The notes beneath the pieces were generated by a model. That model saw only the letters and a list, made by a program, of their open reading frames with translations. It ran no database searches and was not told the origin of the DNA. From NCBI GenBank assembly GCA_020348925.1, contig CP070758.1, positions 3,650,539 through 3,668,165 of the forward strand: a stretch of 17,627 nucleotides of DNA, read 5' to 3'. Shown piece after piece: positions 2,475 to 15,874 of the stretch; position 1 is the stretch's first letter, and each line of letters begins with the position of its first letter. This stretch comes from Gemmatimonadota bacterium. GTDB taxonomy: Bacteria; JBHIER01; G020348925. Both the position numbers and the translations under genes were made by a program.

Positions 2475-4706
2475 TTACTTCAAAAGTACCATGCGTTTGG
2501 TGTACGTGAAATCAGAAGTAGAGAGCCGGAAAAAATACACACCGCTGGCTACATCTTTACCGAATTGATCGCGGCCATCCCAGGTCACCGTGTAATACCC
2601 CGGCTCCTTAACCTCATCCACCAACGTCCTCACCTCCTGCCCCAAGATATTGTAAATCTTAAGAGTGACGTGGGGTGGGGACTGATCACTGACCACTGAA
2701 TACTGAATACTGGTTGTTGGATTAAACGGGTTCGGGTAATTCTGGGCCAGGTTACAACCCTCTGGCAATTCGACAAAATGATTGTTATCTTCTCCTATTG
2801 AAGTAGTACCGCCAGTTGTTGTATGTAAGATTGTGCCACCTTTTCCCACAACCCAACCTGAATTGGAATTAGTAAAATAGATACAATTAAAACTATTGAG
2901 CGTTCCACTTTTTTGACTCGTCCAACTTGTCCCACCATCCGTAGTCTTGAGGATTGTACCATAATCTCCAACCGCCCAACCCGTGTTTGAATCAATGAAA
3001 TAGACAGAATTCAAATCCCATGACGTTCCGCTTGTTTGACTTGTCCAGTTTGTTCCACCGTCCGTTGTTTTGAGAATCGAACCATAATAGTTTTCACCGT
3101 CGTAACAGCCACCAACTGCCCAACCTGTGTTTGAATCAATGAAATAGACAGATCCTAAAAAGCTGGATATTCCACATACGTAATGTTGTACATCCCAGTT
3201 GGTTCCGCCGTTTGTAGTTTTGAGAATCATACCATGGTTGCCTTCATCGTCGTAATAACGCCCAACTGCCCAACCTGTGTTGGAATCCGTAAAATAGACA
3301 GAACCCAGCCAGTTGTATGTTCCCTCTACAAAGTGTTGTACATCCCAATTTGTCCCACCATCTACAGTTTTGAGAATTATTTCACTACGACCTCCAACTG
3401 CCCAGCCCGTGTTGAAATCTATAAAATTGATAGACTTCAAATTGATTGGCATTCCGCTTATCTGGGTTGTCCATTTTGCCCCACCATCTGTTGTTTTGAG
3501 AATAACACCATAATCTCCAACCACCCAACCTGTGTTTGAATCAGTGAAAAAGACAGAATTTAACGTGTATGAGTCACTGATTGGTTGGGAAATCCAGTCT
3601 GTTCCACTATTTGTGGTCTTGAGAATTGTACTGGAGACATCAGAATATCCACCTACTGCCCAACCATTATTGCCATCGATGAAATAGACAGACCTCAAAG
3701 ATCCTGTTATCCCATTCGTTTGAGGTCTCCAGCTTGTTCCACCATTTGTGGTTTTGAGAATAGTGCCCCGCGCTCCAACCACCCAACCGGTGTTAACATC
3801 CGCGAAATGGACGGTTTCCAACCACAGTGATGTTCCACTTGACTGAATTGTCCAGTTTGTTCCCGCATTTGTAGTTTTGATAATCGAGCCTTGGATTGAA
3901 ACTGCCCAACCCGTATTGCTATCAGTGAAATAAACAGATCTAAGATTTTCCAAAAAAGGTTTCCATACAGTTCCAGCCGTCTGACTTATCCAGTTTGTAC
4001 CGCCATCTTTGGTGTGGAGAATTGTGCCGTAATTCCCAACCGCCCACCCCGTGTTGGGATCGATGAAACAGGCGGAATTCAAACCCTCTGATGTTCCGCT
4101 GGTTTGAGAAGTCCAGTTTGTTCCGCCACCCGTCGTTTTTAAAATTGTCCCGTATCCTCCAACAACCCAACCTGTGTTCATATTTGCGAAACAAACGGTA
4201 CTCAACCATTCTGTTGTCCCACTTGTCTGGCTCGTCCAGTTTGTTCCACCATTCGTAGTCTTAAGAATTGTTCCATCGTCTCCAACTGCCCAACCTGTTG
4301 TAGAGTCGATAAAATAGACCGAAAGCAACCAATGTGATGTTCCACTTATCTGACTCGTCCAGCTTACTCCGCCATTTGTGGTCTTAAGAATTCGACCATA
4401 AATATTAGTGTTGTAGTAGTAGACCCCAACTGCCCACCCTATGTTGGAGTCTGTAAAATACACTGATTCCAACCCGCTTATTACTCCTATTGTGTAGTTC
4501 TGCACATCCCAGTGTATTCCACCATCAGTAGTTTTAATAATTGTACATCCATCTCCAACTGCGACTGCTATATTTTGGTCAAAAACATAAATGGCTCTTA
4601 GTGAATTCCCCTGCGGTAAAGGATTTTGCCAGTACCAACCTTCCTGGGCATAGTTTGCAACTGCTACAAGCATCAAGCCTAAAACGATAGAGAATCTCTT
4701 ATACAT
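2475..4706 (-). CDS. Secreted YCF48-like 14-repeat beta-propeller protein with T9SS sorting domain
   Basis: The product is 743 residues. I chose ATG 4704-4706 (MYKRFSIVLGLMLVAVANYAQ, a signal peptide) because AAGGAGG sits 7 bases before it; an ATG eight codons upstream lies above that site. About 14 repeats of 40-50 residues fill residues 30-650, each built on SVYF(I/T)DSNTGWAVG, then GTILKTT(N/D)GGTNW. This is the YCF48/HCF136-type (BNR-like) propeller blade. Fourteen blades would make two seven-bladed propellers, which is an inference. The C-terminal 85 residues (NYPNPFNP, IYNILGQEV, VTWDGRDQFGKDVASGVYFF, terminal LLK) form a T9SS type A sorting/FlgD-like Ig domain, so export through the outer membrane and surface attachment or release are expected. 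YCF48 proteins of phototrophs help photosystem II assembly; that job should not be carried over, since in FCB bacteria these repeats occur in surface proteins of unknown ligand. An extended -10 promoter lies upstream. Confidence 0.93.
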   Translation of the reverse strand: MYKRFSIVLGLMLVAVANYAQEGWYWQNPLPQGNSLRAIYVFDQNIAVAVGDGCTIIKTTDGGIHWDVQNYTIGVISGLESVYFTDSNIGWAVGVYYYNTNIYGRILKTTNGGVSWTSQISGTSHWLLSVYFIDSTTGWAVGDDGTILKTTNGGTNWTSQTSGTTEWLSTVCFANMNTGWVVGGYGTILKTTGGGTNWTSQTSGTSEGLNSACFIDPNTGWAVGNYGTILHTKDGGTNWISQTAGTVWKPFLENLRSVYFTDSNTGWAVSIQGSIIKTTNAGTNWTIQSSGTSLWLETVHFADVNTGWVVGARGTILKTTNGGTSWRPQTNGITGSLRSVYFIDGNNGWAVGGYSDVSSTILKTTNSGTDWISQPISDSYTLNSVFFTDSNTGWVVGDYGVILKTTDGGAKWTTQISGMPINLKSINFIDFNTGWAVGGRSEIILKTVDGGTNWDVQHFVEGTYNWLGSVYFTDSNTGWAVGRYYDDEGNHGMILKTTNGGTNWDVQHYVCGISSFLGSVYFIDSNTGWAVGGCYDGENYYGSILKTTDGGTNWTSQTSGTSWDLNSVYFIDSNTGWAVGDYGTILKTTDGGTSWTSQKSGTLNSFNCIYFTNSNSGWVVGKGGTILHTTTGGTTSIGEDNNHFVELPEGCNLAQNYPNPFNPTTSIQYSVVSDQSPPHVTLKIYNILGQEVRTLVDEVKEPGYYTVTWDGRDQFGKDVASGVYFFRLSTSDFTYTKRMVLLK

Positions 4707-4810
4707 AACTACCTCCTTTCTTAATGCCATCTTTAGAAATAGTGAAATTGTCTATTAATCTCCAAAGCCATGTAATTCTCAACGAAGCAAATGGATCAAA
4801 TAAACATATG

Positions 4811-4846: not shown

Positions 4847-6580
4847 TCACTTCAGAAGTAACATCCGCCTGCTCTGGGTAAATGTTCCTGCTTTCAACCT
4901 ATAGAAATAGATCCCGCTGGCCACGTCCTTGCCAAAGTGATCCCACCCATCCCAGGTAACAGTATAATACCCAGCATCCTTGGGCTCATCCACCAAGGTT
5001 TTAACCTTCTGACCGAGAACGTTGTAGATCGTCAGACGGACCTTACATGCTCTGGTTAGTTCATAACCTATCGTTGTCCGAGCATTAAACGGATTCGGAT
5101 AATTCTGATAGAGGATGAAGGTTCTCGGAATTCCCGACGATCCCACCTCTTCCTCAACAGCAGTGGAGATGTCTATTGTGATGTTTTTGATCATGTCCTC
5201 TTCGACTACGACATTTTCGATATATTGTTCTGTAGATTCGCCTCCCGGAAGAAAAGAGACGAGGGTAAAGGAATAAGTCCCTGCTGGCAAAACAAGCCAG
5301 TACATGCCCAGGTAGGTGATAATGCAAGAGAAGTTGCCCGTTGTTGACTCGTAAGCACTGATGTAGACCTCAGACATGGGCTGTCCATAATTATCCCTGA
5401 TGATTCCCCGAACTTCAAACGACTCGTACAGAGGCGCGAGCGTTATGTCCAATGTCCTATCTTGGTCCATCTCGATATTCGAAACCCTCCGACCGGAGAG
5501 AACTCCGTCATCACCAATATACGTACCGAAGGTCACATCATACGTGTTCCCTTCAATCACCATGAGTTGATAGGTTCCATCCGATGCCGTCTCGGTCATA
5601 AATGTCCCCCAAGGCCAGTGAACATTCGTTGGCAGTTTGTGGGCCGTGACTAAAAATCCCTCCAATGTCTCTCCGTCGGTGTCGGAGACGCAGCCCGAGA
5701 GAACAACACCCGCCTTCAACTCTACATCCAACGTAGTGTCGCCGGTGACCTGAACAGTACTGATACTTTGTCGGGGCAAACCACTTTCCTCAGGTGGGAA
5801 AATATCTAATTCGTATGTGCCTGCTGCCAGATTTATGACGTAGTTTCCATCGATCGAAGTACAACTATTCCCTGAGGGATGGACTGTCGCTCGACCCAAG
5901 GCATTTTCATCCCAGACGGTTACAGAAACATCGGCAACCGGCTCCCCTTCAGGATCAGTAACCCATCCGGAGACGGAGACCCCAATCCTCAGCGTAATAT
6001 TCAGAGTGATGTCTTCACTGACGTTCACATCGGTAATGGTCTGACAAGGAAATCCACTCTCCTCAGCGGGATTGATTTCCAATATATAGGTTTCAGGTTT
6101 GAGTCCGGTGAAGCCATAGGCTCCAGTAGAGTCTGATGAGGCACTGCTCTGCCACGTTCCCGTCCCGAGCCACAGGTGAACGTCTGCCGCAGGGTCGCTA
6201 TCGGGATATGTAATGCGCCCAGCGAGTGTCAATCCGGTTTCCAACACGATGTCCAAGTTTGTATCCGACGGAACCTCGACGTCAAAAATGGTCCGATCAA
6301 GAAGTTCACTGCCCCAGGGTGACGAAACCTCAAGTATATAGGTGCCTCGTGCCAGAGTGATCCTATAGATGCCATCTTCGGTAGTGGCCCCATATCCTTG
6401 CCGATTGTTCAACCAATCCGTGGCCCTTATGGAAACGCCTTCCACTGGATTTCCTCCTGGATCGGTAACCTGTCCAGAGAGGAAGACTGTAGTATCAGAG
6501 GTGGCCGATTCAACGTTGACCGGAACAACCACTGTCGACAAGGCTACTAAGGACATCATGAGTATCGATACTTGCTTCAT
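4847..6580 (-). CDS. Secreted protein with five carboxypeptidase-regulatory-like domains and a T9SS sorting domain
   Basis: The product is 577 residues. The start ATG 6578-6580 follows AAAGGAGTGAG, and residues 1-25 (MKQVSILMMSLVALSTVVVP) are a signal peptide. Five tandem beta-sandwich modules of 80-90 residues follow at about 33-115, 118-198, 201-290, 293-380 and 388-470. Each opens with (L/V)SG.V(T/S)D.(G/E)G.P(V)., has G.Y.(I/L) with (A/P)GTY in the middle and ends with T.L(D/N)I.L. This is the CarboxypepD_reg-like (transthyretin-like) fold, usually a structural or adhesive spacer in exported proteins. Residues about 490-577 are a T9SS type A sorting domain (NYPNPFNARTTIGYEL, IYNVLGQKV, DVASGIYFYRL, RRMLLLK) very close to that of the next gene. 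No catalytic domain is present. The gene is first in the run of three surface-protein genes. Its leader carries the 24-base element shared with the leader at 10361. Confidence 0.92.
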   Translation of the reverse strand: MKQVSILMMSLVALSTVVVPVNVESATSDTTVFLSGQVTDPGGNPVEGVSIRATDWLNNRQGYGATTEDGIYRITLARGTYILEVSSPWGSELLDRTIFDVEVPSDTNLDIVLETGLTLAGRITYPDSDPAADVHLWLGTGTWQSSASSDSTGAYGFTGLKPETYILEINPAEESGFPCQTITDVNVSEDITLNITLRIGVSVSGWVTDPEGEPVADVSVTVWDENALGRATVHPSGNSCTSIDGNYVINLAAGTYELDIFPPEESGLPRQSISTVQVTGDTTLDVELKAGVVLSGCVSDTDGETLEGFLVTAHKLPTNVHWPWGTFMTETASDGTYQLMVIEGNTYDVTFGTYIGDDGVLSGRRVSNIEMDQDRTLDITLAPLYESFEVRGIIRDNYGQPMSEVYISAYESTTGNFSCIITYLGMYWLVLPAGTYSFTLVSFLPGGESTEQYIENVVVEEDMIKNITIDISTAVEEEVGSSGIPRTFILYQNYPNPFNARTTIGYELTRACKVRLTIYNVLGQKVKTLVDEPKDAGYYTVTWDGWDHFGKDVASGIYFYRLKAGTFTQSRRMLLLK

Positions 6581-6629: not shown

Positions 6630-6682
6630 AAAAAAACGCCCCCTTACTCATTAATCTATCAAACGAGCGTAAAGAAGGCGTC
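6630..6682 (-). terminator. Attenuator or terminator hairpin in the leader of the five-domain surface protein
   Basis: Read leftward, GACGCC near 6682-6677 and CTTTACgCTC at 6674-6665 can pair with GAGTAAGG and GGCGT, ending at a run of seven T (6636-6630). The stem is long, with one bulged C and a loop of about 15 bases, which is the shape of an intrinsic terminator. Half of the stem is supplied by the 24-base repeated element. It lies 50 bases before the start codon at 6580 and 131 bases after the stop of the TPR gene (6813). It could therefore end the envelope operon, or act as an attenuator for the surface-protein gene. Confidence 0.5.
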
Positions 6683-6687
6683 GTGAC
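6664..6687 (-). repeat. Copy A of an exact 24-base leader element
   Basis: These 24 bases recur without a mismatch and in the same orientation at 10361-10384. Read leftward the element begins GTCACGACGCC and ends TTACGCTCG. In both copies a run of seven T follows about 27-31 bases further on, and a minus-strand gene start follows after that. This copy forms the 5' arm of the hairpin listed at 6630-6682. I do not recognise it as a known riboswitch. Confidence 0.75.
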
Positions 6688-6812
6688 ATCGACGAAAAAA
6701 ATGGCAATAGAAACAACATTATCGTCTATTCCTCAGCCGTAAAATTTCCTGAACCAAACCTCCACCTGCCATGGTAATGCGCTCTTTCAAAGGTCAATCC
6801 ACTGCTGATCGA

Positions 6813-7733
6813 CTACTTGTAAGCACTCGCTGCCTCCATCTTCAATCTGCTCTGAAATTGCTCAACATTCCTGGAGTTGTATTTTCTGGCCGAGTTGACC
6901 GCACCATAAATGTTTCCTGTGTAAAAGGAGAATCCCAAGAAACCAAGAAAGCAGGCTGATGTTTTTTTGTCATCCTGATACGACTTTATTGCAAAATACG
7001 TAAACGTACCCGTCAGCAGGAGTGAGAAGAATCCATCCGCCACTCTCCCACACCAAACCTGGCCTGCTCCTGGAATAACCGCCGAAAGTATACCAGAGGC
7101 GACAGCTGAACGATGAGGCAGTTGACTACCACTTGCCGATTCCAAGGCCAATCTTTCAGCCAGCGGTACGAATGGACTCTGGGGAAATTTCCTGGGTAGA
7201 TTCATAAACTCATCGGCAGCCTCCAACCAGAGACAATCATCTATGTAGGTCAGTGCTAACATAAATTGTGCATCATCCGCCAATTCACTTCGGGGAAACT
7301 CTCCAATCACTTTATGGTACTGAATTCGAGCAAGATCGAACTCCCCCTTCCGGGAAAAGCAAGAGCCGCTGCTAAAAAGGGAAACCTCAACAAACTTATT
7401 TCGTTCCTCCTCATCAGTTATTTGTTTGAAGACCTTTAGGGCTTGATCCCATTTCTCACATCCCATGTAGCAAAGCCCCAGCTTATATTTAGCCAGAGTT
7501 GCCAATGAGTCCATGGGGAAATTGAAAAGAAAACGTTGATACTCCAATACAGCTAAGTTGTAATCCTCCTGTGCAAGAAGCCTGTCGGCAAAAGCCAACT
7601 GTCTTCCCCGCATCTCACAAATCGGCATGTTCTGCTCTTGTCCATTCCCGGTGAGGGGAACAAATACAAATACAAGTAATGCCACAGTCACGAGCACAAC
7701 GAATTTAACTCTTTTCAATTCACATGAATTCAT
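6813..7733 (-). CDS. Exported TPR protein with GAGQ-type membrane tail (BamD/DUF5683-like arrangement)
   Basis: The product is 306 residues. An N-terminal hydrophobic stretch (about 10-28, FVVLVTVALLVFVFVPL) is a signal peptide or anchor. Residues about 46-205 are TPR-like helical pairs (AVLEYQRFLFNFP, YKLGLCYMGCEKWDQALKVF, ARIQYHKVIGEFPRSELADDAQFMLAL), similar to the helical repeats of BamD/YbgF-type envelope proteins. Residues about 207-295 are a small membrane module opening SAVIPGAGQVWCGRVADG, with hydrophobic helices after it. That resembles DUF5683-type tails; the family name is tentative. Its ATG (7731-7733) overlaps the TGA of the YidD-domain gene by four bases (ATGA), so the two are translationally coupled. 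A role in envelope protein assembly is inferred from the fold and the neighbour. The partner is not identifiable from sequence. Confidence 0.87.
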   Translation of the reverse strand: MNSCELKRVKFVVLVTVALLVFVFVPLTGNGQEQNMPICEMRGRQLAFADRLLAQEDYNLAVLEYQRFLFNFPMDSLATLAKYKLGLCYMGCEKWDQALKVFKQITDEEERNKFVEVSLFSSGSCFSRKGEFDLARIQYHKVIGEFPRSELADDAQFMLALTYIDDCLWLEAADEFMNLPRKFPQSPFVPLAERLALESASGSQLPHRSAVASGILSAVIPGAGQVWCGRVADGFFSLLLTGTFTYFAIKSYQDDKKTSACFLGFLGFSFYTGNIYGAVNSARKYNSRNVEQFQSRLKMEAASAYK

Positions 7734-8230
7734 TTTCTGTAGTGATTCCCTCTGTTGTTTTTGAAGATATAAATATCTTCAACTGGATCAAGAAAACGTC
7801 CATTTTCATCCCTGGGATATCCCCCGAAGGGGATGAAGCCGTGGTCTCTGCTCAATCGGTCAGCAGTCATCATGGTGCCAATCAGAAAACCGTACTTTCT
7901 GTAAGCTTGAAACCCGAATTCCGAGCAACTTGGATAAAAATTGCATCGCGCTCCCAAAAACGGCGAGACAAATACCTTATAGAGGTGAATCGTAACCAGG
8001 GGTATTATTTGTACAGTTGAGACACAAAGTTCATCGGTTCGCTGATATTCACTTTCAAAATAATAGAAGACGGGAATCCCGTTGATGTCTCGTACAAGAG
8101 GCTTTGATCTTAGTGATAGTTCACTATCACACGTCACACCCTTGCCCTGAGCTTGAACCGGAGGAGCGGATAAGATCCAAACCAGGACTGTGACAAACAC
8201 AACCCCGAAGAGAGGAATTCGTGACCCCAA
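7730..8230 (-). CDS. yidD: Exported YidD-domain protein (membrane protein insertion efficiency factor family)
   Basis: The product is 166 residues, roughly twice the usual YidD length of 70-90. The YidD core is at about 81-128 (LYKVFVSPFLGARCNFYPSCSEF), with the family's two cysteines at 96 and 102, followed by GGYPRDENGRFLDP, which matches the usual GGxDP ending. Uniquely placed before it are a signal peptide (about 1-28, FVTVLVWILSAPPVQAQ) and about 50 extra residues. Classical YidD is a small protein on the inner face of the inner membrane that aids YidC/Sec insertion; this version appears to be sent to the periplasm. The start is TTG (8228-8230) behind GGGGAGTGA. An ATG seven bases upstream is out of frame and a GTG at codon 11 would cut into the signal peptide. 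It is coupled by ATGA to the TPR gene downstream. Confidence 0.88.
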   Translation of the reverse strand: MGSRIPLFGVVFVTVLVWILSAPPVQAQGKGVTCDSELSLRSKPLVRDINGIPVFYYFESEYQRTDELCVSTVQIIPLVTIHLYKVFVSPFLGARCNFYPSCSEFGFQAYRKYGFLIGTMMTADRLSRDHGFIPFGGYPRDENGRFLDPVEDIYIFKNNRGNHYRK

Positions 8231-8244
8231 AAAACATCACTCCC

Positions 8245-8261
8245 CTATCTCAATGAGATAG
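8245..8261. repeat. Small perfect hairpin just upstream of the YidD gene
   Basis: CTATCTC and GAGATAG form a perfect seven-base stem around an AAT loop. It ends immediately before the Shine-Dalgarno site of the YidD-domain gene (start 8230). It could affect that gene's translation; no known regulator is recognised. Confidence 0.4.
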
Positions 8262-8275
8262 CATTAAAGAAATAT

Positions 8276-8298
8276 TCAGGACTGATATTCAGTCCTGA
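8276..8298 (-). terminator. Strong hairpin between the anchored zinc-ribbon gene and the YidD gene
   Basis: TCAGGACTGA and TCAGTCCTGA pair perfectly over ten bases around a three-base TAT loop. It lies 50 bases after the stop of the zinc-ribbon gene (8348) and 46 before the YidD start. The bases after the stem on the minus strand (ATATTTCTTT) are T-rich but not a clean run, so termination may be partial. It could instead be an RNA-processing or mRNA-stabilising structure within one operon. Confidence 0.55.
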
Positions 8299-8347
8299 CA
8301 GTAAAAGTGTTTTGATTATCTCACGGTAATATCATGTACAGCAATTA

Positions 8348-8974
8348 TTAATCAGCTTGCGATACAATGAGCACTAACAACAGGAGTGCTGCCGCTACTC
8401 CTGCGCAGCCGCCCAAGAAACCTGCTGCAAAAGGGTCACCTTTACCCTTTTCCTTTTCCTTTCCCTTCTCCTGTTCTGCCTTCAGTCTTTTTTCATACAT
8501 GTCCATTTTAATGCACGCTTTGATCATTTGAGAAGCAACTTCGGCGTAAAAGGTCGAAGGAGCATCTCTGGCTACTTTCCGGAATTGAACAACAGCTTCA
8601 TGGTAAGCTCCGTTCTCAAACAACACTATCCCATAGTCGTAGAGGACCTTAATTTCAAGTTCCTCATCTGTTTCAGGTGCAACTTCCTCTGTCGTCGCAG
8701 GTTTAACGTCACTTTCAGGTTCAGAAGGTTCCTCCTGGGGAACCGCGGGCTCAGTTTCCGGAATTTGCTTCTCAGGCTCAGGTTGTGTGACCTTCTCAGG
8801 CAATTTGTACCCACACTTGGAACAAAACTTAGCTCCAGCCGGGTTTTCGGTACCACAATTGAGACATTGAACCGTCTCCTGTTTTTGCTTCTCCTGAGCA
8901 AATGAGGGTGAGACAAACATCAAAATCAAAGAGAAGATGAGAACATACGAAATATTTCTATTTATAAAAATCAT
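8348..8974 (-). CDS. Exported zinc-ribbon protein with Pro/Glu linker, helical repeat and C-terminal membrane anchor
   Basis: The product is 208 residues from ATG 8972-8974, chosen because AAGGGGGGTGAT lies just before it. An ATG eleven codons upstream is above that site and would spoil the signal peptide. Residues 1-26 (ISYVLIFSLILMFVSPSFA) are a signal peptide. A double CxxC zinc ribbon follows at 37-54 (CLNCG, then CSKCG; Cys37, 40, 51, 54). Residues about 60-115 are a Pro/Glu-rich linker. Residues about 118-165 look like one or two TPR-like helices (YDYGIVLFENGAYHEAVVQFRK). Residues 170-185 are Lys/Glu-rich and 188-205 (FLGGCAGVAAALLLLVLIV) are a transmembrane helix. Zinc ribbons of this type normally sit in the cytoplasm. 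The upstream gene has the same N-terminal plan with cysteines at identical residue numbers. Function is unknown; an envelope scaffold role is a guess. Confidence 0.88.
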   Translation of the reverse strand: MIFINRNISYVLIFSLILMFVSPSFAQEKQKQETVQCLNCGTENPAGAKFCSKCGYKLPEKVTQPEPEKQIPETEPAVPQEEPSEPESDVKPATTEEVAPETDEELEIKVLYDYGIVLFENGAYHEAVVQFRKVARDAPSTFYAEVASQMIKACIKMDMYEKRLKAEQEKGKEKEKGKGDPFAAGFLGGCAGVAAALLLLVLIVSQAD

Positions 8975-9086
8975 ATTATCACCCCCCTTATTTTTCAAAA
9001 AATACAAAATGAGAATCGTCCTTTAATGCGAACAAAAAATGAACTAAGATGTGACCAACTGGCCTCTGAAGAGTTAAGTGGCTTTG

Positions 9087-10208
9087 CTATTTCGCCCGCC
9101 GGGCCTTCACTATTTTCGGTAATGGCAAGTTGATATTGACACCGGCATGAATGTGCATATCACCGATGCCATGATAGTCACCTCGATACATTACGCCGCT
9201 GTCAAGAGGCAACCAATCAAAAGCAAAGAATCTTAGCCCAGCTATCACCATCCATACTGCCTCAATTTGCTCTCGAGTGACAGTCGGATCCTCTTCGTCG
9301 AAATCATATTCGGGGATATACTCAAATTCAATCATCAGCAAAGTTTTAGGATTCGCTTCTACCCGCAAACCCGCAAATGGACGAGTGATGTTTTTATTCA
9401 CGTATTCCTTGTCCCAAGCCTCTACCTGTTCAGGAGTTGGAGAAAGAAGCGCATTATTATGTCTGTATTTCGTCCTGATACGCAAGTCGCTGATGCTGGT
9501 TCCTAAGTGCAGGCTTAAAGCCCCAAAAGTCTTAGATCCCACGAAATAGAGTGTGGATACTCTCTTCTGGAATTTGACCGTGTCACGCTCCTCTGAATGC
9601 CAAAGGGAGCTTCGCAGTGCACCGGCAAAGCCAACATAGGGAAATGTGTCTCTCTCAGGTAGAATTTTCAGCTTAAAGGCAGCGGTTGGGATGGCGGCGG
9701 ATCCCTTGGCAAGACCGCTGATCATCCCGATGGTACTGGCTTCGATTTCGGCTACATCTCCTAAGCCAATACTGGCACGTCCCAAAAAGGGTCTCTTCTC
9801 CTCCTTCATTTCACCAATGATACTACCCCCACCCAAACTGATTTCGAGTGAATTGAGCACCTCAGCAGTGGGGATGAGAAAGAGGCGACAGGGATCAATC
9901 GGACCCTCATAGATTTTTACCGATGTTTCCTTCGGTTTTTCCTCCTGAAGTTCAGGAATTAGCGCCTTTTTTGCCGTGCGCTCGGCCTCCAAATTTTCCT
10001 CTTCGGCCTTCTTCTTTGTTGCTTTGGCCTCTTTCAGAGAATATCCACAGTTAATACAGAAATCATTGGACCAATCGTTGGTGTGCCTACACTTAGGGCA
10101 TGTGATGGTTTCTTTTGCTGCTTCTTGAGCCGAAGAGCTTAATACAAAGGTGAAAAGGAGCCCTCCAACAAAAAAGACCACGCCCATTTTTTTTAAAATG
10201 TTCACCAT
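9087..10208 (-). CDS. Exported protein with N-terminal zinc ribbon and outer-membrane-barrel-like domain
   Basis: The product is 373 residues from ATG 10206-10208, eight bases after AAAGGAGG. A GTG three codons upstream overlaps that site and is unlikely. Residues 1-27 (MGVVFFVGGLLFTFVLSSSA) are a signal peptide. A double CxxC zinc ribbon follows (CPKCR and CINCG; Cys37, 40, 51, 54), then a Lys/Glu/Ala-rich linker to about 100. From about 105 on, alternating beta-strand patterns (LEISLGGGSIIGE, RASIGLGDVAEIEAST, FKLKILPERDTFPYVGFAGALRSS, LSLHLGTSISDLRI, FAGLRVEANPKTLLMIEFEYIPEYDFDE, HIHAGVNINLPLPKIV) suggest an outer-membrane beta-barrel of about 12 strands, or a YjbH-like one. Without structure prediction the strand count is a guess. 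It heads the envelope group and is transcribed from the promoter at 10703 through a leader of about 490 bases. It could be an OM protein that holds the second zinc-ribbon protein. Confidence 0.85.
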   Translation of the reverse strand: MVNILKKMGVVFFVGGLLFTFVLSSSAQEAAKETITCPKCRHTNDWSNDFCINCGYSLKEAKATKKKAEEENLEAERTAKKALIPELQEEKPKETSVKIYEGPIDPCRLFLIPTAEVLNSLEISLGGGSIIGEMKEEKRPFLGRASIGLGDVAEIEASTIGMISGLAKGSAAIPTAAFKLKILPERDTFPYVGFAGALRSSLWHSEERDTVKFQKRVSTLYFVGSKTFGALSLHLGTSISDLRIRTKYRHNNALLSPTPEQVEAWDKEYVNKNITRPFAGLRVEANPKTLLMIEFEYIPEYDFDEEDPTVTREQIEAVWMVIAGLRFFAFDWLPLDSGVMYRGDYHGIGDMHIHAGVNINLPLPKIVKARRAK

Positions 10209-10702
10209 CAAAATCACCTCCTTTGAACAACAAAATCACCAGAAACTGTTTTAGATCTGTGTAGAATCACTAAGAAGGAACCTACACTTCACTCGTTTAG
10301 AACAGGAAAACGATTAATTTTCAAAAAAACATCCACCTCCACATTTATGTATTTTTCAACCGAGCGTAAAGAAGGCGTCGTGACCAACTCCACGCACGTT
10401 TTTTGGCGTGGCTGCAAACTCCAAAGGTGTGAAGTCTAAATACCGGACCTATTCAATTTTAGAGTGGGAACGGTTTCTTATTCTGAACAGAGTGACTCTA
10501 TTCGGGGGTTCTCAGTCCCACGGCCGAAAGCAGCGTCGTGACCGCTTTCGCATCCCACGAACAATTATCATGTGGAAAATCAGAACCAGGACATTGAGAT
10601 TGAAGTGGATGGATAAGGAGTGTATGTGCTTAGCCAACAATTTTTGAGAGACACCACCTCCCTGTTTAATTTCACAGGTGAACATTCAATAAATATGCAT
10701 CG
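10209..10702 (-). promoter_or_regulatory. Long structured 5' leader (about 490 bases) of the zinc-ribbon/barrel gene
   Basis: No convincing gene is present in this gap. Read leftward from the promoter, the leader has a hairpin with CACC/GGTG arms near 10680-10656 and a seven-base hairpin CGAAAGC/GCTTTCG (10550-10544 with 10531-10525) whose 12-base loop contains GGTCACGACGC. A six-base hairpin CCACGC/GCGTGG follows (10411-10406 with 10395-10390). Then comes copy B of the 24-base element (10384-10361) and seven T (10329-10323) before the start at 10208. So the motif GGTCACGACGC occurs twice in the leader. Length, hairpins and a repeated motif suggest a cis-acting RNA. The known riboswitch cores I checked (c-di-GMP-I, TPP, cobalamin, ZTP) are absent. 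Confidence 0.5.
10361..10384 (-). repeat. Copy B of the exact 24-base leader element
   Basis: These 24 bases are identical, in the same orientation, to 6664-6687. Here the element is followed leftward by a G-rich stretch (GGAGGTGGATG) that can pair in part with GCCTTC inside the element, then by seven T. The terminator-like pairing is weaker than in copy A. A shorter relative (GGTCACGACGC) is at 10533-10543. Confidence 0.75.
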
Positions 10703-10796: not shown

Positions 10797-12920
10797 TTAA
10801 TATGATTCCCCCGTTTCACCTCGATCGGCTGGTAATACGATCGTGAAGGTGCTGCCCTTGCCAACCTCACTCTCAACTTTGATTTCACCACGGTGGTTTT
10901 GAAGTATGTTATAACTGATGGATAAACCGAGGCCCGTGCCCACACCTACACCTTTGGTGGTAAAACCCGGATTGAAAATCTTATTAATATTTTCAGATTG
11001 AATCCCACACCCGTCGTCCGCAATTTTTACAATGACGTCGGTATCCTGGAAGGCCGTTTTGATCGTTATCGTCCCTTTCTCTTCAATAGCTTGTACGGCA
11101 TTCATCAATACATTCATGAAAACTTGATTCAACTGATTCAGGGAGCAGTGTATTTCAGGAATCTCCCCATAGTTTCTGACAACGGTTATTCGGTCCTTCA
11201 GTTCGTGTTCAACCAACGTCAGGGTACTCTCCAGACCTTCGTGAATATCCGCCTGTTGGTATTCAGCTTCGTCCAGGCGAGCAAATGCCTTCAGACTTCT
11301 GACTATTCTTGCTATCCTTTCGCTTGCCGTAATGGTGACTTTGTTATTGTCCTCGAGTATTGCAATCGAGTTTTGGAACTGCTTGCTGCTTTTGACTTCA
11401 TCCAAGTCCCTGCTGGATGTCAGGACACTTTTTATTTTTTCAATACAGCGTTTTGTGACATCGGCTGCACTATGGACGGCCCCGATAGGGGTGTTCACTT
11501 CATGGGCAACTCCGGCAACCAAATTTCCCAATGATGCCATTTTCTCTCTCATAATGAGCTGGTCCTGTGCTTCCCTGAGTTCTCTGGTCCGTTCCTCAAC
11601 TTTCTGTTCCAGTGTCTGGCTGTATTCCTGCAAAGCTACGTTCGATTTTTCAAGCTCAACGGCATACTGTTGGAAACGGCGCTCCAGAACAAATCCCAAA
11701 GAGACGATAAAAAAGAACATGCCCCACTGGTACGTATTCTTGGACCAGGGAACAACTTTGAAGACTCCACCCAGAATATCATAGATGCCGAAGACGCAGA
11801 GGGCAGCTAATCCTTTTGTTATAATTTTAGCCTCTTTATTTCCACGAAGGGCTGCTGCGAGACTGGTGCCGAACAAAACAAGGATCGCCGCTCCGAAGAA
11901 GGCAAAAAAGATCATCAGAATTGTCAGGAGTGTACGCAGAGGCAAGAGACTTGTGTATGTTAACAGCAGGGCAACAACCATATATAAAAGAAAGAATTGC
12001 CACATCCGCCTCAGTATCGCCTTCCGTCCGGCGCCGAAGATTTGCTCAAAATAGGCACAGAGCGTGACAGCCGTAAGAAACGGAAGTGCCGTCGAAAAAG
12101 AAAACCAAAACCTGGAAGCAGTGAAAAAGTACTGATCCATGGGGGTTCCTGCTACCGACCACAATCCAAAACTAAAGCAGAGGGAAGCGAATATAAAATA
12201 CGTTTTCCCCTTTCGCCTGGTGATAAAGAGCATGAGTGGTATGAGCCCTGTGGACAGAAACAAAAACCCGAAAATAATTCCCATGGAACTCTCTTTAACG
12301 AGGAGGTGTATGATATCCGCATGAGAACCGATAAGCACCTTTTGGAGGCCTACAAATGAAAGATCTTCAGAATATATTCGGAAGTACAAAACTTTCTTCT
12401 GGAAATCACTGTCAATCGGAAACAGGTGAAAAGGATCCTCGGTGAATCTGCCTTGCCCCGAAACATTTACTGATTTAAAGCGATACAGAAGTTTGCTCTC
12501 GAGATATACTTCACCGGCAAATCTCAGATTTCTGATAAAAATCTGCGGGTCCCGCCAGGTTTTTTCAGGCAGAGGAACTCGCAACCACAGAATTTTACGG
12601 TCCTGACGGTCCGGAGGATTGACGATGCCTTTTGCGTAATCAATCCGTCTCCAATGAGAGTCCTCGCTTTCCTCTGACGTCCAAACAGGCACGCGGTCTT
12701 TGTCGAAGGGAGAATCTCCCCAGCGATATTGCCAACCTTCGGTTATCTCAAAAGGAAGTGAAGGGTTCTTGTGTTGGAAATCGGAACGACTCAATTTCGA
12801 ATGGCGGGAGGTGCATCCGGAAAGAAAACCGACTGCAAGAACGAAAATGAATATGAGTATCATTACAATTAGGGTCCGTTGGCAGCATCCTCGAAACTTG
12901 AACTTTTTCTCATGGAGCAT
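10797..12920 (-). CDS. 7TMR-DISM-type membrane sensor histidine kinase
   Basis: The product is 707 residues. A first membrane segment (about 17-37) ends LSGC, resembling a lipobox. An extracellular beta-rich sensor follows at about 50-195 (WQYRWGDSPFD, ILWLRVPLPEKTW), like the jelly-roll 7TMR-DISMED domains. Seven membrane helices lie at about 205-415 (7TMR-DISM), then a coiled coil at about 420-465 ending EEKVEERTREL-type heptads. The dimerisation/H-box is VAHEVNTP with phospho-acceptor His473. The ATPase domain has the N-box (Asn607), DDGCG, FNPGFTTKG and GTGLGLS, all intact. It should autophosphorylate on sensing an outside ligand, possibly a carbohydrate by fold analogy, and pass phosphate to a response regulator that is not in this window. 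Its ATG shares one base with the TAA of the preceding kinase (TAATG), so translation is coupled. The kinase halves are close paralogues. Confidence 0.93.
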   Translation of the reverse strand: MLHEKKFKFRGCCQRTLIVMILIFIFVLAVGFLSGCTSRHSKLSRSDFQHKNPSLPFEITEGWQYRWGDSPFDKDRVPVWTSEESEDSHWRRIDYAKGIVNPPDRQDRKILWLRVPLPEKTWRDPQIFIRNLRFAGEVYLESKLLYRFKSVNVSGQGRFTEDPFHLFPIDSDFQKKVLYFRIYSEDLSFVGLQKVLIGSHADIIHLLVKESSMGIIFGFLFLSTGLIPLMLFITRRKGKTYFIFASLCFSFGLWSVAGTPMDQYFFTASRFWFSFSTALPFLTAVTLCAYFEQIFGAGRKAILRRMWQFFLLYMVVALLLTYTSLLPLRTLLTILMIFFAFFGAAILVLFGTSLAAALRGNKEAKIITKGLAALCVFGIYDILGGVFKVVPWSKNTYQWGMFFFIVSLGFVLERRFQQYAVELEKSNVALQEYSQTLEQKVEERTRELREAQDQLIMREKMASLGNLVAGVAHEVNTPIGAVHSAADVTKRCIEKIKSVLTSSRDLDEVKSSKQFQNSIAILEDNNKVTITASERIARIVRSLKAFARLDEAEYQQADIHEGLESTLTLVEHELKDRITVVRNYGEIPEIHCSLNQLNQVFMNVLMNAVQAIEEKGTITIKTAFQDTDVIVKIADDGCGIQSENINKIFNPGFTTKGVGVGTGLGLSISYNILQNHRGEIKVESEVGKGSTFTIVLPADRGETGESY

Positions 12921-14389
12921 TACACTTCTCTCTCATTTTCGAAATCCGTCGGTAACATGACAGTAAACAGACTGCCCTTTCCAACTTCACTTTCTACCTT
13001 TAATTGTCCCTTGTGCTTCCGTACGATGTTATAACTTGTAAAGAGTCCCAATCCCGCCTTCACCCTCGATCCGTTCCTCTCAAAGCTCGGATCGAAAAGT
13101 TCTTGAATCCTGTCCGGCGACATACCAACTCCGGTATCAGCAATCTGAATATGCACAGTTCCTTTTTCGACAAACGTGCGGATTCTGATGTTCCCTTCCC
13201 TTTCAATCGACTGGAAGGCATTCGTCAACAGGTTCATAAACACCTGGTTTAACTCTGCCGGATAACAGGCAATCGCGGGAACATCCCCATATTCTTTGAC
13301 GATATGTATCCCATCTTTCATTTCATGCTGAATCACAGTCAGGGTATTGTCAAGACCCTCATGAATATCGACTTTCCCAAACTCAGCTTCATCCAAGCGG
13401 GCAAAATGTATAAAGCTGCTCACCGTATTTGCAACCCTATCACTGGCGGATGAAAAAATTCGGCTGTTGTCTTTAAGGATTTGAAAGAATTTCTGAAAAT
13501 CGATATCTTTCTCAATCTCGGAAAATCTCTCGTTTCTTTTGAAATAGTGCTCCATCTTCGAAAAACATTTGGCCGTAATATCTGCGGCACTTTTGAGCGC
13601 ACCAATTGGATTGTTGATCTCGTGAGCGATACCTGCAGCCAGCTTTCCCAAAGAAGCCATTTTTTCGGAGTGGACCAATTCTATTTGAGTTTCTTTCAGC
13701 TCGGTCAGCGTCGCTTCAAGTTCGCTGTTTGTTTCTGTTACGTCAAGTACTAATTGCTCGGCCCGGGCGTGCTCTTTTTGAAAAGCGTTGACAAAATAAC
13801 GCATGGAGATAAATATGATTATCGACAGCACAATTATAGTTATTCCATAACTCACCATTAAGTCACCATGGGAAGGGGTTAATTCTGAAAATGATATGGG
13901 AAAATCTGCAAATCGTGCAAAATGTTGGTCTAGAGACAGAAAAAGAAAAACCAGTACAAGATAGGCAACGAACCACCAGGTCGCTTTTCGGGTGTCCTGA
14001 AACATCAATGAACCAAAGGGAGCTAAGATTGACCAGAATATGATGGGAACAGAACCTTGTCCTGAGAAACCGCCGATACTGATCTGGAAGAAAACGGGAA
14101 TAAACAGGATCATAATTAAGAAGGGATAAAGAAGATGAGGGAATCGTTTGGTCCGGAAATAAAAGAATAAAGCAGTTCCAACAACAATGGTAAATAGAAG
14201 AGGCATTAAAATTTCAACCAAAGGACGTGAATTACGTATACCCTGTGCAATAGATATGACGCCGGTCAGGCAGCAGAACAGCGCAATCATAACCAAAATG
14301 ACTTTCTGTCGCCTCTGAGCAGGAGAATCTGTGTCCAAGACACTGATCCTTTCCAAACGATTCCACAACGTGTAGAAAACGCGTTTCAT
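12920..14389 (-). CDS. Membrane histidine kinase with six-helix N-terminus, paralogue of the next gene
   Basis: The product is 489 residues; ATG 14387-14389 follows AGGAGG. About six membrane helices occupy residues 28-205 with only short loops, the longest outside segment being near HFARFADFPISFSELTPSHGD. A coiled coil follows (about 205-245). The H-box is GIAHEINNPIGA with His256, and the N-box is NLLTNAFQSI (Asn390). IADTGVGM is normal, but the last glycine box reads KAGLGLF where GTGLGLS is usual, and the lid is shortened in Gly/Thr content (FERNGSRV). ATP binding may be altered though not clearly lost. By eye the last 225 residues align without a gap to the following kinase at about 48% identity. 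It is first in a two-gene operon with the 7TMR-DISM kinase. The signal is unknown; it may sense membrane state or a small molecule. Confidence 0.92.
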   Translation of the reverse strand: MKRVFYTLWNRLERISVLDTDSPAQRRQKVILVMIALFCCLTGVISIAQGIRNSRPLVEILMPLLFTIVVGTALFFYFRTKRFPHLLYPFLIMILFIPVFFQISIGGFSGQGSVPIIFWSILAPFGSLMFQDTRKATWWFVAYLVLVFLFLSLDQHFARFADFPISFSELTPSHGDLMVSYGITIIVLSIIIFISMRYFVNAFQKEHARAEQLVLDVTETNSELEATLTELKETQIELVHSEKMASLGKLAAGIAHEINNPIGALKSAADITAKCFSKMEHYFKRNERFSEIEKDIDFQKFFQILKDNSRIFSSASDRVANTVSSFIHFARLDEAEFGKVDIHEGLDNTLTVIQHEMKDGIHIVKEYGDVPAIACYPAELNQVFMNLLTNAFQSIEREGNIRIRTFVEKGTVHIQIADTGVGMSPDRIQELFDPSFERNGSRVKAGLGLFTSYNIVRKHKGQLKVESEVGKGSLFTVMLPTDFENEREV

Positions 14390-15649: not shown

Positions 15650-15874
15650 ATGTTTGGTGGCGCCATCGGACCAGGAGAGATATTGATAGTTTTGTTTGTG
15701 ATATTACTCCTCTTTGGAGCAAAACGATTGCCAGAACTCGCCCGGGGTATGGGCAAGGGAATACGGGAGTTCAAGAAAGCAACCAGTGGTATTGAAGAGG
15801 AGATGAAGCTGGAGGAGAAGACGAAGGAGAAGACGGAGGAGAAGACGAAGGAGAACGAAAAAAAGGCAGGCTAA
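15650..15874 (+). CDS. tatA: Sec-independent protein translocase TatA/TatE
   Basis: The product is 74 residues. The start ATG 15650-15652 is chosen over a GTG three codons upstream because AAAGGAGGTG ends just before the right spacing, and because MFGGAIGPGEILIVLFV is the normal TatA N-terminus. One membrane helix (about 10-23, EILIVLFVILLLFG) is followed by the FG..(R/K)LPEL hinge and the amphipathic helix ARGMGKGIREFKKA, all diagnostic of TatA/B-type proteins. The C-terminal 25 residues are a Lys/Glu repeat (EEKTKEKTEEKTKENEKK) encoded by a near-exact 15-18-base repeat. TatA forms the variable ring of the twin-arginine pore that exports folded proteins across the inner membrane. No tatC or tatB is in the window. 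It is one of the few rightward genes and follows the DUF4321-like frame. Confidence 0.95.
   Translation: MFGGAIGPGEILIVLFVILLLFGAKRLPELARGMGKGIREFKKATSGIEEEMKLEEKTKEKTEEKTKENEKKAG

Follow-up and report, generated by a model that had tools for sequence, protein, structure and literature searches.

Two copies of a 24-base element belong to a family of putative attenuator leaders

The 24-base element that occurs twice in the window, i.e. the whole analysed stretch of 17,627 nt (positions 3650539-3668165 of a single-contig genome of 5.04 Mb), is the core, and the best-conserved part, of a larger family of leaders. With covariance models and inspection, at least about 18 members were found in this one genome. 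Judged from sequence, the members are likely to be paralogous leader RNAs that attenuate transcription in cis, and they probably act as RNA on/off switches; actual termination, switching, a trigger and co-regulation of the genes are what we infer for them.

The two copies are identical, lie in the same orientation at 6664-6687 (copy A) and 10361-10384 (copy B), and by simple arithmetic the chance expectation for an exact 24-mer pair in 17.6 kb is <1e-6. The genes concerned are located on the minus strand, so that the element reads GTCACGACGCCTTCTTTACGCTCG in the transcript. It is followed by 27 bases and then seven T in copy A (A run at 6630-6636 of the plus strand), and by 31 bases and seven T in copy B (A run at 10323-10329 of the plus strand). 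The sequence-only reading had reported this repeat and a gap of 27-31 bases, and the coordinates, the identity and both distances were verified. It had also placed each copy on the 5′ side of a minus-strand gene for an exported protein; open reading frames were indeed found at both places, and their N-termini look exported by eye.

The leader that carries copy B (leader 2, locus L026) is encoded on the minus strand. A promoter-like site, TTGACA-17-TATATT, at 10703-10731 matches 11 of 12 consensus bases with a 17-nt spacer, which none of 200 shuffles equalled. The hairpin of module A at 10525-10550 has a 9-bp stem by sequence and is matched by the hairpin model R3 (see below) at 10524-10551 with 21.6 bits; its loop, UCACGACG, contains GGTCACGACGC at 10533-10543, which is the shortened relative of the element that had been described earlier as lying in a hairpin loop. 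Module B at 10322-10461 comprises the conserved AAUUGAAUAGG, stem P2, hairpin B and the terminator, and is matched by model R1 with an E value of 1.3e-25, this copy being part of the seed. Hairpin B (GUGGAGUUGGUCACGACGCCUUCUUUAC, 10366-10393, R3 score 23.8 bits, −8.2 kcal/mol) is the minimum free energy (MFE) state of the truncated leader and a candidate antiterminator. The terminator-like structure at 10323-10379 has a weak stem (−10.1 kcal/mol) and a U7 run that can be read directly. The gene behind it (9087-10208, ATG at 10208 after AAAGGAGG) encodes an exported protein with a zinc-ribbon-like CxxC pattern, for which a Pfam search gave no match. Leader 2 heads the zinc-ribbon, YidD and TPR genes.

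The copy A unit (locus L033, 6630-6727, minus strand) sits between the TPR gene and a CarboxypepD_reg gene. It consists of a degenerate hairpin H and a terminator, matched by model R2 at 6631-6727 with 79 bits (a copy in the seed). The terminator-shaped stem proposed for this copy does fold, at −20.3 kcal/mol; the intrinsic-terminator-like stem and the U7 that follows it (6630-6682) lie ~50 nt ahead of the ATG of the gene downstream. That gene (4847-6580, minus strand) encodes an exported CarboxypepD_reg-repeat protein (PF13620, E 1.4e-44) with a type IX-like sorting tail (PF18962, E 1.4e-6). A promoter scan revealed no clear promoter of copy A's own, and copy A could be an internal attenuator of the leader 2 gene cluster.

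Members and anatomy of the leader family

With two mismatches allowed, the 24-mer has four exact and two near copies (two mismatches) in the genome, and the identical search with a reversed control pattern gave 0 matches. It is flanked by a conserved module B of ~135 nt (AACAAUUGAAUAGGCUUGG...CCAAGCCAAAAGCGUGUUGUAGAGCUGGUCACGACGCCUUCUUUACGCUCG...AUGAGUGAGGGGGCGUUUUUU), and in several copies a module A hairpin with a similar loop type is located upstream of module B. In each search, 150 candidates were scored, so that the family may have further members. Model R1, representing module B, recovered the known copies and pointed to L029, L030, L032 and L034-L037; several of its candidates had weak scores (E 0.004 to 4) and were taken in on layout, and most were found again by other searches. 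Model R2, which covers hairpin and terminator, added L057, a locus that was not in its seed, at E 1e-10. As R2 matched the A module of L032 too, the A and B modules are probably related. Ten sites were found for the 3′ arm of the terminator with three mismatches, all within leaders, and L046 and L047 were new. Model R3, which covers a hairpin of 29 nt, led to L079 (E 0.04) and L086 (E 0.3), which were accepted because a promoter and tandem loop hairpins are present. The loop pattern alone was found at 23 sites, i.e. 7 in leaders and 16 within long open frames, the latter having no promoter match and mostly no stems. Inspection of the weak model matches at L038, L063, L066-L068 and L089-L091 showed no leader layout, and they were discarded.

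In a typical leader, a sigma-70-like promoter is followed by one, two or three hairpins, whose loops are closed by GG/CC, and then by a long intrinsic terminator. Promoters with at least 10 of the 12 consensus bases precede 9 of the 18 leaders, compared to an expectation of 2.1; L036, L037, L057 and L086 have TTGACA with weaker −10 boxes, and a convincing promoter was not found in L025, L027, L029, L030 and L033. The loops follow the pattern GG-UYAYGRC(N)G-CC in the A, the B and some of the H hairpins and are diverged in the L037/L047/L057 group. The terminators fold stably in most copies, and neither a clear U run nor a clear terminator was found in L027, L079 and L086.

A predicted switch between hairpin B and the terminator

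In L024, L025, L026 and L028, the 24-mer region provides the 3′ arm of hairpin B as well as the 5′ arm of the terminator. As the last hairpin and the terminator have these bases in common, either one or the other can form, and the overlap has the predicted logic of an attenuator. Such a double duty would account for the exact conservation of these bases. Hairpin B is the MFE state when transcripts of L024, L025 and L026 are truncated. When the 3′ arm of the terminator is added, L024 folds into the terminator, whereas full-length L025 and L026 stay in hairpin B (MFE), suggesting that the two states are near in energy. In the class C leaders, to which copy A belongs, a hairpin closely precedes the terminator, and their MFE folds contain no consistent antiterminator.

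The proposed mechanism is as follows. Transcription would start at a promoter ~200-360 nt upstream of the terminator, and the leader RNA would form between one and three hairpins. Their loops are closed by GG/CC, and many have the pattern UYAYGRC(N)G. The 24-mer would be the 3′ arm of the final hairpin in the B-type copies. As long as hairpin B is held, the terminator would not form and RNA polymerase would read into the gene; otherwise, the 24-mer would pair with GAGGGGGCGU and transcription would end at the U run. The likely controller would be a ligand or protein with specificity for the conserved loops and the segments left unpaired. Owing to the overlap of hairpin and terminator, the predicted switch lends itself to a clear test, and the ligand or protein could be sought with the conserved loop as bait.

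Genes behind the leaders

The leader and the gene after it share a strand in 16 of 18 cases, and in 11 cases the gene starts at a distance of 400 nt or less. No sense gene lies behind L027 and L030, and five leaders are separated by 550-770 nt from theirs. A dispersed repeat of the form GGGTTCGAGGATTCGAGG directly follows the U run in L024, L030, L034, L037, L047 and L057, and may account for the long gene distance in several leaders.

Most of the downstream products are exported proteins, judged by eye from the N-termini, and signalling regulators. According to Pfam, they comprise CarboxypepD_reg (with a type IX-like tail), beta-lactamase-fold, esterase, Lcl_C, LNT_N and UPF0150 proteins, an AraC-type response regulator, a response regulator-GGDEF protein and a sigma-54 activator. 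One further product is FecR-like, with a Pfam score under the curated cut-off, and the PHP-like protein behind L024 has no Pfam match. At L079:1301-1810, ~0.8 kb past the right end of the window, and at L086:1100-1700, two to three tandem loop hairpins precede the genes for the sigma-54 activator and the response regulator-GGDEF protein, respectively, so that regulators, and not surface proteins alone, lie behind leaders of this family. The leader family thereby names its own candidate targets, i.e. surface proteins, a diguanylate cyclase and response regulators.

The units might instead encode sibling small RNAs that act in trans, through their hairpin loops or by binding of a protein, so that the genes behind them would be neighbours and not cis targets. 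They are complete from promoter to terminator and would yield transcripts of 200-400 nt, and for 7 of the 18 the sense strand either has no gene at all or has none at a distance of 500 nt or less. Nevertheless, the excess of same-strand genes and the 11 short distances given above are not in favour of mere neighbourhood, four of the units precede genes for paralogous exported proteins (32-40% identity), and a plain small RNA has no need for a switch-like overlap of hairpin and terminator. We therefore regard small RNAs as an unlikely explanation, even if it is the strongest of the alternatives.

Comparison with known classes of leader RNAs

The second alternative is that the attenuator leaders are targets of an ANTAR protein that holds the antiterminator hairpin, as EutV or NasR do. 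The genome encodes a single REC-ANTAR protein, and the ANTAR targets of EutV, NasR and AmiR share with the leaders small tandem hairpins of which the last overlaps an intrinsic terminator (PMC3369931). The rule for such targets is a hexaloop with A1 and G4 (PMC3369931), and the corresponding pair of two hexaloop hairpins, with the second overlapping the terminator, was not found in the leaders. The terminator-overlapping hairpin has the loop CACGAC, with no A at position 1, and the loops are instead of the type UYAYGRC(N)G. The leaders are also larger and have extra conserved segments. One of these, AUUGA-AUAGGC-UUGGU, could give an A1/G4 hexaloop in several copies, but the resulting hairpin is weak (G-U rich), clashes with P2 and is missing from most class C leaders. 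Control by the ANTAR protein thus appears improbable, and the leaders are read as antiterminator-like, yet outside the ANTAR, LoaP and Rfam riboswitch classes.

The attenuator leaders also resemble other systems in part. A BglG/SacY-type RAT antiterminator likewise uses one hairpin that excludes the terminator, but RAT is a single element of 29-30 nt (PMC3369931), whereas the leaders have repeated hairpins plus P2. Processive antitermination by LoaP/RfaH similarly involves a leader RNA element before terminators; in contrast, a NusG paralog was not found in this genome, which has a single PF02357 match and thus just one NusG-family gene. c-di-GMP-I (GEMM) riboswitches are alike in their structured leaders, terminator platform, tandem modules and many copies before membrane, surface and signalling genes, but they differ in that the leaders described here match no Rfam family and are thus uncatalogued: Rfam covariance models gave no match in the window, nor at E 5 in the leader loci searched. 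The simple tandem leader hairpins of the pan motif, interpreted as a dimeric protein-binding arrangement (PMC2864571), are comparable in layout, while sequence, structure and target genes all differ. In L037, L047 and L057, the short frames that follow SD-like purine tracts are, as judged by eye, not conserved, and leader peptides were not found there.

Covariation of the stems

The hairpin alignment contained 17 hairpins, with N put into shorter loops to hold the register. Nine of the ten base pairs of the hairpin vary on both sides, and the stems have 31 two-sided changes compared to 10.6 ± 3.1 in shuffles (0 of 500 as high). Shifting the partner by one to three columns reduced the pairing from 86% to 49-65%. 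Stem P2 gave a modest signal, with two-sided changes at three pairs across eight copies. These figures are supportive and are not to be read as probabilities, because the copies are, without exception, paralogs from a single genome and because a visible stem was the reason for picking some of the hairpins.

The earlier suggestion of a cis-acting RNA or attenuator family is thus largely upheld, i.e. by ~18 leaders, the order of promoter, hairpin and terminator, covarying stems and same-strand genes. The co-regulation that it proposed for surface proteins is putative, and the likely targets extend beyond them. The same reading had set against its proposal a placement at random or in coding DNA without stem covariation; no verified copy was found in coding DNA, and the stems covary, as paralogs in one genome.

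The copies could also be dispersed repeats, i.e. REP- or MITE-like DNA that carries terminator hairpins and has no regulatory role, and it is true that every copy is in one genome and that other dispersed repeats adjoin several of them. However, the pairing is kept although flanks and stem sequences differ, the orientation to the next gene is constant while the downstream genes are mostly unrelated, and collections of phage and plasmid records and viral contigs gave no match to the leader family, all of which makes repeats without a role very improbable. A DNA operator, with the quasi-palindrome GTYAYGRC as the site of a dimeric transcription factor, can hardly be the explanation: the loops are near-palindromic, and one of them, GTCATGAC in L025, is perfectly so, but the surrounding arms vary and yet stay complementary, as expected for RNA, and the sites are far downstream of the promoters with irregular spacing.

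A MITE-like insertion of ~190 nt, with the inverted ends TGATTCATTCATGAA...TTCATGAATAATTCA, was seen at L001:1269-1461 inside the loop of stem P2, and part of it recurs just 3′ of the terminator of that leader.

Distribution of the family

A scan of GTDB with the exact pattern gave five matches, about the number expected by chance, none of them with the flanking motif. In 385 genomes outside this phylum, model R2 had five weak matches in four genomes, the best with 3.6e-4; the one of these R2 matches that was viewed as an alignment has a GC-rich stem, looks like an ordinary terminator and was rejected. The simplest reading is a lineage-restricted family.

Beyond the attenuator reading, we tentatively propose, as a possibility with the odds against it, that the leaders form a new class of signal-sensing leader RNAs confined to a phylum-level lineage, whose repeated hairpins have quasi-palindromic loops (GUYAYGRC) that kiss each other or are bound by a dedicated ligand or factor, and whose ~18 copies set a genome-wide programme of surface proteins and signalling. 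Kissing of the loops is possible because GUYAYGRC is quasi-palindromic, and plain conservation of the loops would give the same pattern. An uncatalogued regulatory RNA with ~18 copies would define a regulon in this lineage.

Further features were observed in the window. Just upstream of leader 2, two adjoining histidine-kinase-like genes (10797-14389) have C-terminal halves that are alike, and are probably a tandem duplication. A 751-aa protein with a type IX-like sorting tail is encoded at 2475-4730; it contains ~13 repeats, which resemble those of the Ycf48/BNR type, and a 34-nt core recurs in its DNA every 123-150 bases. A short 12-base tandem repeat (GAAGACGGAGGA) is present at 15805-15852.
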